DNA from: Bradyrhizobium sp. WD16
GTDB taxonomy: Bacteria; Pseudomonadota; Alphaproteobacteria; Rhizobiales; Xanthobacteraceae
Direction: 5' to 3'
Assembly (NCBI RefSeq): GCF_024181725.1
Contig: NZ_CP028908.1
Span: 2,046,001-2,110,000, forward strand
DNA length: 64,000 nt
The translations under genes were made by a program, and so were the position numbers. The notes under the pieces were generated by a model that searched no databases, was not told the origin of the DNA, and was given only the letters and a program-made list of their open reading frames with translations. Below, piece by piece: positions 54,307 to 62,691 of this stretch; the stretch's first letter is position 1, and each line of letters opens with the position of its first letter.

Positions 54307-56988
54307 TTACAGCGAGCGCTGGATCGTCTCCACGCGGTAACACTCGATGACATCGCCGGGCCGCATGTCCTGGTAGCTCTCGAAGGACATGCCGCATTCC
54401 TGGCCGGCGGTGACTTCCTTGGCGTCGTCCTTGAAACGCTTGAGCTGGGCGAGCTTGCCTTCGTGGATGACGACATTGTCGCGGATCAGGCGAACATTGG
54501 CGCCGCGCTCCACGGTGCCGTCGGTGATGCGGCAACCCGCGATCTTGCCGACCTTGGAGATGTTGAACACCTCCAGCACCTGGGCATTGCCGAGCATGGT
54601 CTCGCGCAAAGTCGGCGCGAGCAGGCCGGACATCGCCTTTTTCACATCGTCCACGAGGTCGTAGATGATGTTGTAGTAGCGGATCTCGATGCCGTCGCGC
54701 TTGGCGAGATTGGCGGCTTCCTTGTGCGCGCGCACGTTGAAGCCGATGATCGCGGCGCCGAAGCCTTCGGCCAGCGTGACGTCGGATTCGCTGATGCCGC
54801 CGACGCCGGCATGGAGGATCCGCGCCGCGACCTCCTCGGTGCCGAGCTTCTCCAGCGAGCCGAGGATCGCTTCCAGCGAGCCCTGCACGTCGGCCTTGAT
54901 CACCAGCGGGAAGTCCTTGCGGCCCGAAGTCTTGAGCTGCGACATCATCTGTTCGAGCGAGCCGCGCATGCCGGCCAGGCTCGCCGCCGATTTCTCGCGC
55001 TTCTGGTGGGCGCGATAGGAGGTGATTTCGCGGGCACGGGCCTCGGTCGGCACCACGGCGAGACGGTCGCCCGCCTCCGGCGGGCCGTTGAAGCCGAGCA
55101 CCTCGACCGGAACCGAGGGACCAGCCTCTTCCAGGGTCTTGCCCTGGTCGGAGATCAGTGCGCGAACGCGGCCCATTTCGGCGCCGGCGACGATGATGTC
55201 ACCGATCCGCAGCGTGCCGCGCTGAACCAGCACGGTGGCGACCGGGCCGCGGCCGCGGTCGAGCTTGGCCTCGATCACGGTGCCTTCGGCCGGACGATCC
55301 GGATTGGTCTTGAGCTCGAGCAGTTCGGACTGCAGCGAGATCATTTCCAGCAGCTTGTCGAGATTGGTGTGGTTCTTCGCCGAGACCTCGACATCGACCA
55401 CGTCGCCGCCGAAGGATTCGACCTGCACCTCATGCTGCAACAGTTCGGTGCGCACGCGCTCGGGCTTGGCGTCCGGCTTGTCGATCTTGTTGATCGCGAC
55501 GATCATCGGCACCCTGGCCGCCTTGGCGTGATTGATCGCCTCGATGGTTTGCGGCATCACGCCGTCGTCGGCGGCAACCACCAGGACCACGATGTCGGTG
55601 ACCTTGGCGCCGCGGGCGCGCATCGCCGTGAAGGCGGCGTGGCCCGGGGTATCGATGAAGGTGATCTTCCTGCCGTCCGGCGAGGCGACCTGGTAGGCGC
55701 CGATATGCTGGGTGATGCCGCCGGCTTCGCCGCTGACCACGTTGGCATGGCGCAGGGCGTCGAGCAGCGAGGTCTTGCCGTGATCGACATGGCCCATCAC
55801 GGTGACCACCGGCGGGCGCTGCACCTGATCGCTTTCCTTGTCGTCGGCGACGTCGAACAGGCCTTCCTCGACGTCCGAGGCGGCGACGCGCTTGACGCTG
55901 TGGCCCATTTCCTCGGCGATGAGCTGGGCGGTATCGGCGTCGATCACGTCGGTGATCTTCACCATCTGGCCCTGCTTCATCATCAGGCGGATGACGTCGA
56001 CGGCGCGCTCCGCCATGCGGTTGGCGAGTTCCTGGATCGTGATCGCTTCGGGGATGACCACCTCGCGGATCAGTTTTTCCTTCGGCTCGTTGGCATGGTG
56101 GCCCTTGAGGCGCTGGGTGCGGCGGCGGAACGAGGCCACCGAGCGCTCGCGCACGTCATCGGCGCTGAATGCGGTGACGACGGTGAGACGGCCGCGCTGC
56201 TTCTGGGGCGCCGGCTTGGCGGTTGTCTTGGGTGCGGCGACCGGGCGCGCTGCCCCCGGGCCGCGACGCACCTGACGGGGACCTTCGTCCTCTTCGGCCT
56301 CGGCCGGCACGCCGGCCGGACGGGGGGCGCCGGCAACCGGTCGGGCGGCGCCGGTCGAGGGTCGGGCGGCACTGGCGGTCGGACGGGCGGAGGTCGACGG
56401 GCGGGCCGTCGCGGCGGCCGGAGCTGCCGGCTTGGCCGCTTCCTCGCCGAAACGCTTCTTGGCTTCCAGTTCGGCCTTGCGCTTGGCCTCTTCCTCGATG
56501 CGGCGGCGATTGGCCTCTTCGCGCTGCCGCGCTTCGGCGGCTTCGCGTTCGGCCTGTTCCTTGAATTCCTTGGTGCTGCGGCGGGCTGCTTCTTCCTCGG
56601 CGCGGCGGCGCTCCTCTTCTTCGCGCACGCGCGCGTCGGCAAGCGCCATGGCGCGGGCACTGCGCTCGTCCTCGGTCAGCTTGGGCAGCACGACGCCGGA
56701 GCCGCTGCGCTGCGGAGCGGGCGCACGGGGGGGCGCGCCGCCCGGACGGGTCGGGGCGGCGGCGGGCCTGGGAGCCGCGGCCTCGGGAGCGCGGGGCGCG
56801 GCCTCGGCGGCGGGCGCAGGGCCCTCGCCGGGCAGGCGGCGCTTGGTCCGCTTCTCCACCACGACCGATTTGCTGCGGCCGTGGCTGAAGCTCTGGCGCA
56901 CCACGCCGGTCTCCGCGCGCGGTTTCAGCGACAGAGTTTTGGTACCGACGCTCAACGTCTTGTCGCCAGGATTCTTGGTGTCCGCCAT
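54307..56988 (-). CDS. infB: Translation initiation factor IF-2
   Basis: GTPase that brings initiator fMet-tRNA to the 30S subunit. 893 residues. After [21 protein letters not shown] comes a ~290-residue low-complexity region rich in Ala, Pro, Arg and a Glu/Arg coiled-coil stretch ([19 protein letters not shown]). The IF2 N-domain follows ([20 protein letters not shown]), then the G domain: [49 protein letters not shown]. Domains II-IV end with [16 protein letters not shown]. Gap to ylxR is 87 bp. A very long antisense frame on the plus strand is rejected as a shadow of this GC-rich gene. Confidence 0.97.
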
Positions 56989-57075: not shown

Positions 57076-57846
57076 TCAAGCACCCTTCAAATCGTCTCGG
57101 CCGGGGTCCGAAGGCGCGACGACCGGAGCGTCGAGAACCGCTCCTGTTCCCGCCAGCTTCGTCTCCGGCAGCTTCGCTGTCGCCGTTCTGGTCGCCTCGC
57201 GGCGTTCCGGCATGTCGCCGGCCTGCCCACCACGAAACCGCTCGATGCCCTCGCAGCGGGCCATGACGGTTTTGGCCGCCGCACCCGGGCGCAGGGCAGC
57301 ATGTATCACATTTGTCCGGCCCAGTGCCAAATCCAATTCTACCGAAGTGAGGGCCGTCAGCACCGGGACGGAAGCCGCGCGCGCGATCGCCTCGAGTTTG
57401 CGCAACCCGTCCGCAGCGCCGTCGCAGGCATGGAGCACCGCCACGGCCTCGCCCGATCGCAGCGCGGCCTCGACCTTGGCCCAGCCGGGCGCCACCTCGC
57501 CGGCCTTGCCGGCGATTGCCACGGCATCGATTGCGGCGCTCACCAGCAGCTTTTCGGTTTCGGTGACCAGTTCGGGCGAAACCCGGACATCGCGACGGAA
57601 GCCCCGGCCGAATACCCCCCGGCGCATGGCCTCAGCCACCACGATGCGGCTGGCGGTGAGCCAGAGCCCGCGGCCAGGCAGCTTGCGTTTCACATCAGCG
57701 GTGACAGCGCCGTCCGGCGCGACCACGAAGCGGAGCAACCGCTCGATCGGCTCGACCTGCCGCGTCACTGCGCATAGCCGTTCGGTCCCGGGCTTTGCGG
57801 CCCGGGGTCCGGTATCAAGCTCTGCGCAGTCGGCGGCGGCAAGCAT
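57076..57846 (-). CDS. YlxR (DUF448) RNA-binding protein fused to an L7Ae-like domain
   Basis: A 256-residue protein between nusA and infB. Residues ~20-100 are the YlxR fold: ERLCAVTRQVEPIERLLRFV, PDGAVTADVKRKLPGRGLWL and VFGRGFRRDVRV. Residues ~105-195 resemble the YlxQ/ribosomal L7Ae RNA-binding fold (GEVAPGWAKVEAALRSGEAV...GGKA-like AGKAGEV). The C terminus (ERREATRTATAKLPETKLAG) is variable. YlxR proteins bind RNA and affect transcription of the nusA operon in other bacteria. ATG at 57846 is 15 bp after the nusA stop. Confidence 0.85.
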   Translation of the reverse strand: MLAAADCAELDTGPRAAKPGTERLCAVTRQVEPIERLLRFVVAPDGAVTADVKRKLPGRGLWLTASRIVVAEAMRRGVFGRGFRRDVRVSPELVTETEKLLVSAAIDAVAIAGKAGEVAPGWAKVEAALRSGEAVAVLHACDGAADGLRKLEAIARAASVPVLTALTSVELDLALGRTNVIHAALRPGAAAKTVMARCEGIERFRGGQAGDMPERREATRTATAKLPETKLAGTGAVLDAPVVAPSDPGRDDLKGA

Positions 57847-57861
57847 GCGTGGGCATCGTCC

Positions 57862-59481
57862 TTACGCCGGATGTTGTTCGGCAGGGGTATCCTCAGCGGG
57901 GGCTTCCTCGGCCGCCGGCTTGGCGAGATCGGCCTCGGTGATCCAGCCTGCGGCGACGCGGGCCTGCATGATCAAGGCTTCGGCGTCCTCACGGGATAGA
58001 TCGGAACTATCGAGGAAGCCCGGATGCTTGACGGTTTCGCCATCCTTGCGCTCGGTCCAGCCGGCGATGTCGTCGGTGGCGCAGTCGGCGAGATCCTCGA
58101 CCGTCTTGACGCCATTCTCACCGAGCTTGACCAGGACCTTCAGGCTCGCGCCGGGCACCGATTTGAGCGCCTCTTCGACGCCGAGCTCCTTGAGCTTGGC
58201 CTCGAGTTCGGCCTCCTGCTGCGCCAGATATTCCTTGGCGCGGCTCTGCAGTTCCTCGGCGGTTTCCTCGTCGAAGCCCTCGATGTTGGCAAGTTCCTTT
58301 AGATCGACCAAAGCCAGCTCCTCCACCGACGAAAAGCCTTCTGACGCAAGCAGCTGGCCGACCACTTCGTCGACATTCAGCGCTTCCATGAAGACCCGGG
58401 TTGAATTCTCGAAATCGGCCTGACGCCGCTCCGACTCTTCCTGTTCGGTCAGGATGTCGATGTCCCAGCCGGTGAGCTGGGAGGCGAGGCGCACGTTCTG
58501 GCCGCGACGGCCGATCGCAAGCGACAATTGGGTATCCGGGACCACGACTTCAATACGTTCGCGGTCCTCGTCGATCACCACCTTGGCGACCTCAGCCGGC
58601 GCCAGCGCATTCACCACGAAGGTGGCGATGTCCGGCGACCACGGAATGATGTCGATCTTTTCGCCCTGCAGCTCGTTGACCACGGCCTGCACGCGCGAGC
58701 CGCGCATGCCGACGCAGGCGCCGACCGGATCGACCGAGGAATCCCGCGACACCACGCCGATCTTGGCCCGGGAGCCCGGGTCGCGGGCCACCGCCTTGAT
58801 CTCGACGATGCCGTCATAGATCTCCGGCACTTCCTGCGCGAACAGCTTCGCCATGAATTGCGGGTGGGTGCGCGACAGGAAAATCTGCGGGCCGCGGGTC
58901 TCGCGGCGGACATCGAACAGGTAGGCGCGGACGCGGTCGCCGTTGCGGAACATTTCACGCGGCAGCATTTCGTCGCGGCGGATGATCGCCTCGCCGCGCC
59001 CCAGATCCACGATCACGCTGCCGTATTCGACGCGCTTGACCGTGCCGTTGACGATGTCGCCGATGCGATCCTTGAATTCCTGGTACTGGCGGTCGCGCTC
59101 AGCCTCGCGCACCTTCTGCACGATGACCTGCTTGGCCGATTGGGCGGCGATACGGCCGTACTCCAGCGGCGGCAGCGTGTCCGCGATGGTGTCGCCGACC
59201 TGGGCGCCCGGGTTCATGCGGCGCGCGTCCTCGAGCGAAATCTGGTTGGCGGGATTTTCCACCTTGTCGACGACCAGCATGTGACGGGACAGCCGCAGCT
59301 CGCCCTTCTTGCTGTCGATCTCGGCGTGGACGTCGGTCTCGCTGCCGTAGCGGGCACGGGCGGCCTTGGCGATGGCGTCCTCCATCGCCGAGATCACGAT
59401 CGAGCGGTCGATCGATTTCTCGCGAGCGACGGCATCGGCGATCTGCAGCAGTTCGAGCTTGTTGGCGCTGACAGCGGCCAT
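57862..59481 (-). CDS. nusA: Transcription termination/antitermination factor NusA
   Basis: RNA-polymerase-bound factor governing pausing, termination and rRNA antitermination. 539 residues. N-terminal RNAP-binding domain ([20 protein letters not shown]); S1 domain ([22 protein letters not shown]); two KH domains with [23 protein letters not shown] and [22 protein letters not shown]; and two C-terminal acidic helix-hairpin-helix repeats ([22 protein letters not shown] and [17 protein letters not shown]). Ends in a Glu/Ala tail. Located between rimP (12 bp upstream) and ylxR. Confidence 0.97.
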
Positions 59482-59493
59482 GATTCACTCTCC

Positions 59494-60216
59494 TTAGTGG
59501 TGCCCGCTGCGCGAACGCGCGGCGAGGCGATCTTTCTTGGTTCCAGCAGGCTTGTCCCGGCTCGGCGCCGGCTTGGTTGGTTTTGCAGGCGCGGGCGGAT
59601 CCTCCTCGTCCGAGGCGGGTTCGCCCCGCCGCAGCGCCCGCTCCGCCGCCTTGCCGCGCCGCATGGATTCGGCGATCAGCTCGTCGGTGAGGACCAGCCG
59701 GGCATCGGCAATGTCCTCCATGCGCAGCAACACGTCGGGATCTTCGCCGGCGCGGACATCGTCCCGCCGCAGCTTGACGCGGTCGCCATCGACGCCGGTC
59801 AGGGTGCCCCGGAAGCGCTTGCGGCTATCATGGGCCACCGCCATCTCGATCTTGGCGAGATGGCCGGCATGGCGGGCGAAATCAGTGCGGCGCACCAGCG
59901 GTCGGTCGATCCCGGGCGACGAGATCTCGAGGCGGTAGGCCCGCTCGATCGGGTCGGCGATGTCGAGTACCGGCGACAGGGCGCGGGACACGGCTTCGCA
60001 GTCATCGATCAGCATGGTGCCGTCCGGCCGCTCGGCCATGATCTGGACGGTGCACCCGGCTTCGCCGGTGATCCGGATCCGGACCAGGCGGTAACCCATT
60101 CCGTGCAGCACCGGTTCGGCGACGGCGGCCACTCGTGCGGCGACGCCGGGCTCGACCACCAGACGGGGCTCGTCCAGCAGCTCGGTGTCCGTGGCGGTTT
60201 CGATCGGTGCGGTCAT
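59494..60216 (-). CDS. rimP: Ribosome maturation factor RimP
   Basis: Needed for 30S subunit assembly. 240 residues, longer than the ~150-200 usual because of a basic C-terminal tail ([20 protein letters not shown]). The N-terminal domain has [21 protein letters not shown] and [21 protein letters not shown], then [25 protein letters not shown]. The Sm-like C-terminal domain includes [22 protein letters not shown] at 60216 follows TTTAGGACATGACC. First coding gene of the rimP-nusA-ylxR-infB-rbfA-truB-rpsO-pnp run; a short promoter-terminator unit precedes it. Confidence 0.93.
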
Positions 60217-60348
60217 GTCCTAAAATGCAAATCCGGTCGGTATGATGGTCCGGAGCGGGCAAGGTCGCGGCGCACTCGGTCCTGAAGTTCCGGTTCCCGG
60301 TCGCGCGTCGCCCGCGCCCCCGGCTTTGGACCGGGTCGTGCGGGTAAT

Positions 60349-60410
60349 AAAAAAGAGCGGGTCCCGGAAGGGCCCACTCTCAATACGCGACCGTATGAGA
60401 CGTTCTTTAC
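60349..60410 (-). ncRNA. Candidate short RNA or attenuated leader upstream of rimP
   Basis: Minus-strand unit of ~60 nt. Hairpin 1: CTCATACG-GTCG-CGTATTGAG (60399-60379). Hairpin 2: GAGTGGGCCC-TTCC-GGGACCCGCTC (60379-60355) with a U·G pair and one bulged A, immediately followed by TTTTTT (60354-60349), a good intrinsic terminator. The U·G pair would be a C×A mismatch on the other strand, which favours minus-strand transcription. A promoter lies just upstream. It could be an sRNA or a transcription attenuator for the rimP operon; family not recognised. Confidence 0.6.
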
Positions 60411-60416
60411 AGGCGG

Positions 60417-60445
60417 AATATAGCGGCTTCGCCGCCCAGCGGCAA
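60417..60445 (-). promoter_or_regulatory. Candidate promoter of the rimP leader/operon
   Basis: TTGCCG (60445-60440), exactly 17 bp, TATATT (60422-60417) on the minus strand: a near-consensus sigma-70 promoter. Transcription would start around 60410, run into the hairpin-terminator unit 60410-60349, and continue to rimP only by readthrough. Confidence 0.6.
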
Positions 60446-60536
60446 GGGCGCGTGCGCCGGTAACGGCGCTAAAATTGCGACCCGGCGGATCCGCCGCCTC
60501 AGCGAGCGGACTAACGCTTCATTCATACCGAGGCCT

Positions 60537-60630
60537 TAGTGTCCCGGTTCTAAAGTTCGTATCTCGTTGCAGCGAGCGCCGTTCGCTCATGGGGCCGCTG
60601 CGAATGAAGCGAATCTCGGATTCGGGACAC
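60537..60630. repeat. TA-flanked imperfect palindrome, third type (E3)
   Basis: Starts TA-GTGTCCCGGTTCTAAAGTTCG and ends CGAATCTCGGATTCGGGACAC; about 15 of 21 arm positions pair. The left flank is TA, the right flank is TG. The GTGTCCCG end is like E2 but the interior differs. It lies upstream of the DUF2336 gene, in the gap 60446-60708, which has no other feature. Confidence 0.55.
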
Positions 60631-60708
60631 TGGTGCCCCACATTCGAAGGGGCGCTCGGGATCGAGGTCGCCGTGCGCCCGGCGCTGGCGAGTAGACAAG
60701 GTTAACGC

Positions 60709-61812
60709 ATGGCCGCAGCCGTATCCGCCCTCCCGGAGCTCGACGAGATCGTCAGCAGCGGCGATGTCCGCCGGCAGGTCGAGGTGGTTCGCAAGCTCTC
60801 TGATCTGTTTGCCGAGGGCGCAGCCCATTTCAAGCCGCAGCATGTGGAGCTGTTCGACGGCATCCTGATCGGCCTGGTGCCGCTGGTCGAGGTCGACGTC
60901 CGCGCCCGGCTTGCCGAGCAGCTCGCACCGATCCCGAATGCGCCGCCTTCGCTGGTCGGGCTGCTGGTCCATGAAGACGAAATTGCCATCGCCGGTCCGA
61001 TCCTGCGCGCCTCGCCGCAGGTCGACGAGCCGACGCTGATCGAGATCGCGTCCTCCAAGGGGCAGAGCCATCTGTTCGCGATCACCGAGCGCGCTTCCCT
61101 GGCGCCCGGTGTCACCGACGTGATCATACGCCGGGGCGACCAGGACGTTGTCCGCAGCGTCGCCAGCAATTCCGGCGCGCGGTTCTCGCCGAACGGCTAC
61201 TCCGGGCTGATTACCCGGGCGAGCGATGACGGGGTCCTGGCGCTGGCGGTGGGCCGGCGACACGACATCAATCAGCAGCAGCTCAAGGAGCTGCTCGAGC
61301 ACTCCGCCGACATCGTTCGCCGTCGCCTGTTCGACATGGCGTCGCCGACACGCAAGGTTGCGATCAACCAGGCCATGATCGGCATCGGCTCGGGACCGGC
61401 ATCGCGCAACGGCGCCCGCGATTTCGCCCGTGCCCAGCGCGAGATCCTCACCTTGAGCCTGGCCGAACAGCTCGACGAATCGGCGCTGCTCGCTTTCGCC
61501 AAGGAGCACAAATACGAAGAAACCGTCGCGGCGCTCTCGGTGATGACAGGCGTGAGCCTCACCATCATCGACAATCTGATGCGCGGCGATCGTCATGATC
61601 CGATCCTGATCATGGGCAAGTCGCTCGGGCTGCAATGGCCGACGGTGCGCGCGGTCATCATCGTTCGCGTCGGCCCGGGTCGGCCCCAGCCCACGGTGCC
61701 CGAAATGGAAGAGGCGCGGCAGAACTACGAACGGCTGGTGTCGGCGACGGCGCAGCGCGTTCTCAAGTTCTGGCAGAAGCGGCCCGGGACCGGCGGCGGC
61801 GCCGAAAACTAG
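60709..61812 (+). CDS. DUF2336 domain protein
   Basis: A 367-residue cytoplasmic, mostly helical protein of the alphaproteobacterial DUF2336 family. Helical-repeat character is visible in VRRQVEVVRKLSDLFAEGAAHF, LVEVDVRARLAEQLAPIPNAPP, DEPTLIEIASSKGQSHLFAI and QQQLKELLEHSADIVRRRLF; the C-terminal part includes ETVAALSVMTGVSLTIIDNLMR. No enzyme motif is seen; relatives have been connected to stress or cell-cycle signalling. ATG at 60709. Its TAG stop (61810-61812) is the TA target plus the first base of an E1 palindromic element, and the stop would be TAG with or without the insertion. Confidence 0.85.
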   Translation: MAAAVSALPELDEIVSSGDVRRQVEVVRKLSDLFAEGAAHFKPQHVELFDGILIGLVPLVEVDVRARLAEQLAPIPNAPPSLVGLLVHEDEIAIAGPILRASPQVDEPTLIEIASSKGQSHLFAITERASLAPGVTDVIIRRGDQDVVRSVASNSGARFSPNGYSGLITRASDDGVLALAVGRRHDINQQQLKELLEHSADIVRRRLFDMASPTRKVAINQAMIGIGSGPASRNGARDFARAQREILTLSLAEQLDESALLAFAKEHKYEETVAALSVMTGVSLTIIDNLMRGDRHDPILIMGKSLGLQWPTVRAVIIVRVGPGRPQPTVPEMEEARQNYERLVSATAQRVLKFWQKRPGTGGGAEN

Positions 61813-61882
61813 TGTGGCGTCTCGCAATTGCCTACCGTCTTTGCGGCAAGGCTCTCGTAGGCAATTGCGAGACGCCACACTA
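61810..61882. mobile_element. E1 palindromic MITE-like element (intact)
   Basis: GTGTGGCGTCTCGCAATTGC (from 61812) pairs exactly with GCAATTGCGAGACGCCACAC (to 61880), flanked by TA at 61810-61811 and 61881-61882 within CTAG. This is the most symmetrical E1 copy in the window and lacks the ATAA interruption seen at 11632. It overlaps the end of the DUF2336 gene and lies ~100 bp from the convergent trmB end. Confidence 0.8.
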
Positions 61883-61983
61883 GTGCGGTTTTGGCCCCGA
61901 CGCGCGTACGACGAATTCGCTGCAATGCTGATACGAGCGTCAGATCCATCGCACTCGGTTTCGGCGGGCGTGTTTGCGCCTTG

Positions 61984-62691
61984 TCATCGCCGACGGAAGA
62001 TCAGATAGGCCGCCTTGCGGCCCTCGCGCTCGGCTTTGCGGCCGTAACGCGTCATCGTGTAGCCCGGCCACGGGGCGCGCCAGTCGGCGGCCCGCTCCGC
62101 CGTCCAGGTGAAGTCCGGGCTGCGCAGCAGATGCGCCAGCGTCCAGGCGCAGTAATGATCGATATCGCTGACGAAGCGGAATTCGCCGCCACTCGCCAAT
62201 GCCCGCGCCATGGCGGCGACGGTCGCATCCTGCACGAAGCGCCGCTTCCAATGCCGGCGCTTCGGCCAGGGGTCGGGATGGATCAGGTCGATCCGGCTCA
62301 GCGATCCCGGCGGCACCCAGGCGAGCAGCTCGGCGGCGTCGCCGGCGAGGAGCTTGATGTTGTCGCGCGGCTTCGCCTCGATCTGCGCGAGGATCTTGGC
62401 CATCCCGTTCACATAGGGCTCAACGCCGATGAAGCCGGTGTCCGGATGGGCGTCGGCCTCGGCGATCAGATGCTCGCCGCCGCCGAAGCCGATCTCGACC
62501 CGCACCGTCGCGACCTTGCCCGGGAAGAGCGCGGCAAGGCCGGTCGGTGGCGGCGCGGCGATCTCGAGCGACAGGCGCGGCAGCAGCCCGGCGATCAGCC
62601 CGGCCTGGTGGCTGCGCAGCTTGTGGCCCTTGCGGCGACCGAAGAAGGCCCGCGCGGGCCCGTCAGAGCGTTGGTCGGTATCCGGCATCAT
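61984..62691 (-). CDS. trmB: tRNA (guanine46-N7)-methyltransferase
   Basis: SAM-dependent formation of m7G46 in the tRNA variable loop. About 235 residues. FFGRRKGHKLRSHQAGLI at the start; SAM motif VRVEIGFGGGEHLIAEA; GVEPYVNGMAKIL; and the family signature LIHPDPWPKRRHWKRRFVQ. C-terminal WRAPWPGYTMTRYGRKAEREGR binds tRNA. The frame is open to 62775; of two adjacent ATGs the first (62691) is chosen. It normally sits with metK in Rhizobiales, but here the XRE regulator is directly upstream. Confidence 0.94.
   Translation of the reverse strand: MMPDTDQRSDGPARAFFGRRKGHKLRSHQAGLIAGLLPRLSLEIAAPPPTGLAALFPGKVATVRVEIGFGGGEHLIAEADAHPDTGFIGVEPYVNGMAKILAQIEAKPRDNIKLLAGDAAELLAWVPPGSLSRIDLIHPDPWPKRRHWKRRFVQDATVAAMARALASGGEFRFVSDIDHYCAWTLAHLLRSPDFTWTAERAADWRAPWPGYTMTRYGRKAEREGRKAAYLIFRRR

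Follow-up and report, generated by a model that had tools for sequence, protein, structure and literature searches.

A conserved leader before rimP-nusA-infB in Bradyrhizobium sp. WD16, a likely Hyphomicrobiales form of the rimP-leader attenuator

Reports that NusA feeds back on the operon encoding it go back to 1985 (cited in PMC2965389), and comparative work has described a rimP-leader attenuator that carries a conserved stem, shows no visible antiterminator in its general form and has NusA as its likely reader (Naville & Gautheret 2010, PMC2965389). RNA-seq in S. agalactiae detected early termination in the rimP operon, 31 nt downstream of its start, and NusA feedback was proposed there (PMC4448216). 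Two terminators lie upstream of rimP in E. coli, where NusA regulates its own operon (PMC6511841); a Term-seq paper on NusA in Bacillus does not mention the rimP-nusA operon (PMC8060035). What NusA reads in RNA is not settled in the literature that we found.

The leader analysed here lies in a window of 64,000 nt from Bradyrhizobium sp. WD16 (contig NZ_CP028908.1, positions 2,046,001 to 2,110,000; all coordinates below are those of the window). We consider it likely that it is a transcription-attenuating leader of rimP-nusA-ylxR-infB, a core operon that serves transcription control and ribosome assembly, in a form of the rimP-leader specific to the order Hyphomicrobiales. The original prediction had placed a promoter, two hairpins and a TTTTTT run close together on the minus strand, about 130 bp before rimP, and this layout is borne out: the coordinates agree (Table 1), the end of T6 is 132 nt from the rimP ATG (60216), and Pfam confirms RimP, NusA and IF2. 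The outer limits of the element appear better set at about 60445–60341, because the block conserved in BLASTN comparisons (below) is mostly 60400–60341.

Table 1. Features of the leader and its neighbours in the window
Feature	Position	Strand	Basis or remark
-35 element TTGCCG	60440..60445	-	sequence and promoter scan
-10 element TATATT	60417..60422	-	17-nt spacer from -35; predicted start near 60410
hairpin 1, UCUCAUACG-GUCG-CGUAUUGAGA	60378..60400	-	fold; compensatory changes in relatives; 3′ arm GAGA (60381-60378) overlaps terminator foot
terminator hairpin, GAGAGUGGG (60381-60373) with CCCGCUCU (60361-60354)	60354..60381	-	fixed U.G wobble (60376 with 60358); C.A mismatch or A bulge above GGG/CCC
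U6 run, intrinsic terminator	60349..60354	-	sequence
downstream conserved stretch ATTACCCG	60341..60348	-	RTTACCYG in most relatives
rimP	59494..60216	-	Pfam RimP_N and RimP C-terminal domain
nusA	57862..59481	-	Pfam NusA_N, S1, KH
ylxR homologue of operon	57076..57846	-	Pfam YlxR
infB (IF2)	54307..56988	-	Pfam IF-2 domains
divergent DUF2336 gene	60709..61812	+	upstream neighbour of leader

The promoter is the only sigma-70-like site of its quality found in 58000–62500, where shuffled sequence would give 0.5. At least 8 of 12 promoter positions match in 123 of 150 leaders of relatives, as against 15 in shuffles; nearly all of these promoters end 28–62 nt before AGTGGG, just ahead of the first hairpin, and TTGC is the commonest -35 form at the matching place. 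Fold energy alone does not decide the strand, since both strands fold about equally well against shuffles (z = -3.1 for the minus strand, -3.4 for the plus strand). The minus-strand RNA, which the original prediction had favoured from its U.G pair and bulge, is selected by three sequence features: the U run, the promoter and a U.G wobble that is present in 110/110 relatives. A simple terminator scan missed the leader terminator, presumably because the bulge or mismatch leaves just three unbroken pairs beside the loop. On inspection, the 60-nt RNA showed no obvious reading frame with a ribosome-binding site from which a leader peptide could be made. A dispersed repeat with inverted arms AGTGTCCCGGTTCTAAAGTTCG / CGAATCTCGGATTCGGGACACT occupies 60538–60631, some 90 bp upstream of the promoter of rimP; it has at least about 40 partial copies in the same genome and resembles a REP-like or short mobile element.

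Because the DUF2336 gene upstream is divergent, there is no co-directional gene directly upstream for the terminator to serve, and RNA initiated at the leader promoter is the most likely target of the terminator. An ordinary, non-regulatory terminator that merely shields the operon from transcription coming from upstream would fit the several relatives in which trmB lies upstream on the same strand, but the divergent neighbour found here, the promoter just ahead of the hairpins, a stem invariant in sequence beyond what structure would demand and a U run that proves dispensable (both described below) make such a role very improbable.

Conservation of the leader within the family and the order was followed in several ways. 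A BLASTN search of 61 relatives with the 264-nt leader as query gave matches in 33, mostly confined to query positions 81–140, i.e. 60400–60341, the transcribed part, and rimP-nusA adjoins the leader in all 30 of the loci first fetched. The stem GAGAGUGGG...CCCGCUC, with no T6 demanded, occurs about once per genome in 115/120 family genomes and in 47/47 genera (reversed pattern, 4 matches), and the exact stem followed by T6 in 89/120 (reversed pattern, 0), a degree of sequence conservation that we do not attribute to chance. Elsewhere in the class, the exact motif with T5 is absent from 239 genomes, almost all of which belong to other orders, so that its exact form is limited in range; variants were seen by eye in nearby families. 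One locus (L237; G080, contig C49 11300–13900) has two leader units 1.4 kb apart, each preceding its own RimP-like frame, which may reflect a duplication or a chimeric assembly. In another (L013:1208–1457) a long near-perfect inverted repeat lies between leader and rimP, with a sub-threshold match to the Brucella sRNA CI27 (30 bits vs a cut-off of 59.8).

Beyond the order, one genome per species was scanned with the pattern AGTGGGN{3,20}CCCRCTCTTTTTT, which gave at least 115 loci. In 88 of the 115 matches listed, rimP or nusA follows the motif within 400 nt, and most of these listed rimP/nusA matches belong to Hyphomicrobiales (Rhizobium, Mesorhizobium, Ensifer, Methylobacterium, Devosia, Roseibium, Bartonella and others). 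Fifteen of the 88 fall outside that order, three of them placed there by about 40% NusA identity; the titled ones are from Verrucomicrobiota (including Akkermansia), Elusimicrobiota and Clostridia, in which an AGUGGG...CCC(A/G)CUCU6 element precedes nusA. At 12 of the listed loci outside Hyphomicrobiales nusA follows the motif directly, leaving no space for rimP, an arrangement that favours NusA over RimP. At the level of sequence, then, the leader is nearly identical throughout a bacterial order and is retained in part across phyla. Two Burkholderiales loci (L085, L087) have AGTGGG...CCCACTC-T6 terminators, nearly identical to each other, immediately ahead of an ATG; neither rimP nor nusA was detected in the fetched loci.

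The association with these genes bears on a further reading, in which the element is a dedicated gene for a trans-acting small RNA, equipped with a promoter and terminator of its own, whose position before rimP is incidental. The spacing of promoter and terminator, some 60 nt apart, and the stable 5′ hairpins of many relatives would suit such a gene, yet in the relatives' fetched loci the leader is always directly before rimP-nusA and the distant forms of the motif stay with nusA. An Hfq-type small RNA needs its 3′ U run, and since 18 genomes (7 genera) have lost U6 and kept the stem, an Hfq-type trans role is disfavoured. Moreover, Rfam searches of the leader and its relatives at gathering and permissive thresholds returned nothing real, none of the rhizobial sRNA families exceeded its cut-off (the best, Atu_C4, scored 16.3 bits vs a cut-off of 80), and our literature search found no rhizobial sRNA at rimP. 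We regard a dedicated trans-acting gene as improbable. The original prediction had set an attenuator beside an independent RNA of about 60 nt; comparison favours the attenuator, and the small RNA is hardly a separate alternative, given that termination within the leader yields a short RNA, as reported for S. agalactiae (PMC4448216). Many relatives with a longer hairpin 1 have an extra small 5′ hairpin at the predicted start, e.g. GTCCCTATTGGGGATAC (L009–L030, L187–L236), which was not seen in Bradyrhizobium-like leaders.

Of 108 distinct leaders of the order, 102 have an upstream hairpin (hairpin 1) that includes three or more bases of the terminator foot (mean z -1.66). In alignment A1, the pair formed by columns 17 and 34 is C-G in 23, U-A in 12 and U-G in 3 sequences; pairing falls from 88% to 64% or less when the partner is slid, and the covariation score was reached by 2 of 500 shuffles, with slide -3 scoring similarly. 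In alignment A2, which has the longer hairpin 1, the upper stem covaries and no shuffle reached the score. Both sets of shuffle and slide controls leave the relatedness of the sequences in, and only a few evolutionary events may underlie the covariation at the foot. Within these comparisons, hairpin 1 covaries beyond shuffles and most slides, and compensatory changes are present. A crude test for a continuous helix from the upstream region onto the foot gave no signal (5/108 exceeded the 95th percentile of shuffles of the same leader), whereas folding of whole hairpins with counting of covariation did. Conservation of the hairpin in relatives had been set beforehand as a check on the prediction, and it was found, both in the 115 family genomes with the stem and beside rimP-nusA at every one of the 30 loci; the compensatory changes likewise sought in relatives' leaders appear in hairpin 1 (A1, A2) and are almost absent from the terminator stem, which is nearly invariant.

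Two states are predicted for the RNA of the window, about 1 kcal/mol apart: a full terminator with a short hairpin 1, or a full hairpin 1 with a shorter terminator, the latter also pairing the RNA 5′ end with the U run. This pairing of the 5′ end, GUAAAGAA, was rejected on inspection as not conserved in relatives. We suggest that the overlap between hairpin 1 and terminator may act as a switch.

The terminator stem, AGAGUGGG/CCCGCUCU, has almost no variation and hence almost no covariation of its own, in a sample whose first 30 loci were picked without a letter pattern and whose later sequences came from a pattern demanding the stem letters. Opposite the U of the wobble, where either A or G would have satisfied the search pattern, 110/110 relatives have G. 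Pairing is avoided at the position above GGG/CCC: 14 of 110 relatives pair there, vs 32 expected from base frequencies, and C.A and U.U are the commonest combinations. Moreover, 26 family genomes have the stem without T6, and in 18 of these (7 genera) the U run counts as lost, i.e. there is no T run longer than 4 within nine bases after the stem (CCCGCTC-CGTTTCTGC is an example), although promoter, hairpins and stem still precede rimP. Considering that the stem letters are kept without a good U run, recognition by a factor is suggested, and plain intrinsic termination cannot account for everything in these 18 genomes. That GCUCUUU could be a boxA-like site is an idea only.

The same U-run-less genomes, and letters conserved beyond pairing, could instead mean that the invariant hairpin is a site at which a protein (NusA, RimP, a ribosomal protein or a nuclease) governs stability or translation of the readthrough mRNA, and not termination. 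We hold this to be quite unlikely, given that stem and U6 are kept together in most family genomes (89/120), that termination is reported at the equivalent S. agalactiae site (PMC4448216) and that the motif lies near the promoter, up to 264 nt from the coding start.

An attenuator leader is well supported, on a comparative footing, by the conserved position, promoter, terminator and covarying hairpin 1. We suggest that RNA polymerase would start near 60410 and transcribe a lead-in of about 10 nt, hairpin 1 and then the terminator; some polymerases would stop at U6, yielding an RNA of about 60 nt, and the remainder would read through into rimP. Termination in the cell is what we infer from sequence. 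A protein may recognise the invariant stem, with polymerase-bound NusA the likeliest candidate, such that more NusA would give more termination and less operon mRNA, and hairpin 1 may tune termination by competing for the lower terminator stem (GAGA). Considering the literature and the gene order, NusA probably feeds back on its own operon through this leader.

Tentatively, and with the odds against it in our judgement, we put forward that the invariant hairpin AGAGUGGG...CCCGCUCU might be a cross-phylum, sequence-specific NusA site working via pausing or factor-assisted stopping besides intrinsic termination, and that the foot-sharing upstream hairpin of Hyphomicrobiales might be a built-in antiterminator, which would let some lineages retain control after losing the U run. 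A stem identical through the order, present again before nusA in other phyla and outliving loss of the U run offers a compact natural set of variants for testing how NusA reads RNA.

Finally, how the element relates to described systems can be set out. Like the rimP-leader (PMC2965389), it lies in the 5′ leader of rimP-nusA-infB and has a GUGGG / CCCGC stem, of highly conserved sequence, followed by T6. Against the GGGc(...)gCCC pattern of that family the 5′ arm GGGC agrees, whereas the 3′ arm here is ACCC and C-A is the commonest combination in relatives; the 132 nt between terminator and gene is at the limit of the 4–130 nt given for the rimP-leader, and the distance runs from 12 to 264 nt in relatives. 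It differs in the covarying hairpin over the terminator foot, where no antiterminator was seen in the general form, in the fixed U.G wobble and in the loss of the U run in some genera. The S. agalactiae leader (gbs0413–gbs0418, rimP-nusA-infB) is alike in its start, followed after 31 nt by a predicted intrinsic terminator, and in a short RNA and a long transcript from one start with NusA feedback proposed, features that are predicted here from sequence alone; it belongs to a Firmicute, and no upstream hairpin is described in the accessible part of that report (PMC4448216). E. coli metY-nusA-infB is alike in having terminators before rimP, two in that case, and NusA regulating its own operon (PMC6511841), and differs in the tRNA metY in its leader and in tandem terminators of other sequence. 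Rfam RF01770 (rimP) has the same genes and leader position, but its covariance model (cut-off 47 bits) does not match at this locus, and over 61 genomes it gave only weak matches, none over the cut-off and, among the matches listed, none at the leader, which argues for an order-specific variant. In the sources consulted we found no mention of the upstream hairpin that overlaps the terminator, of the fixed U.G wobble or of U-run loss with the stem kept (18 genomes, 7 genera). On this comparison the kind of element is already known as the rimP-leader, and the form described here is, by its predicted features, a distinct variant that extends throughout Hyphomicrobiales.
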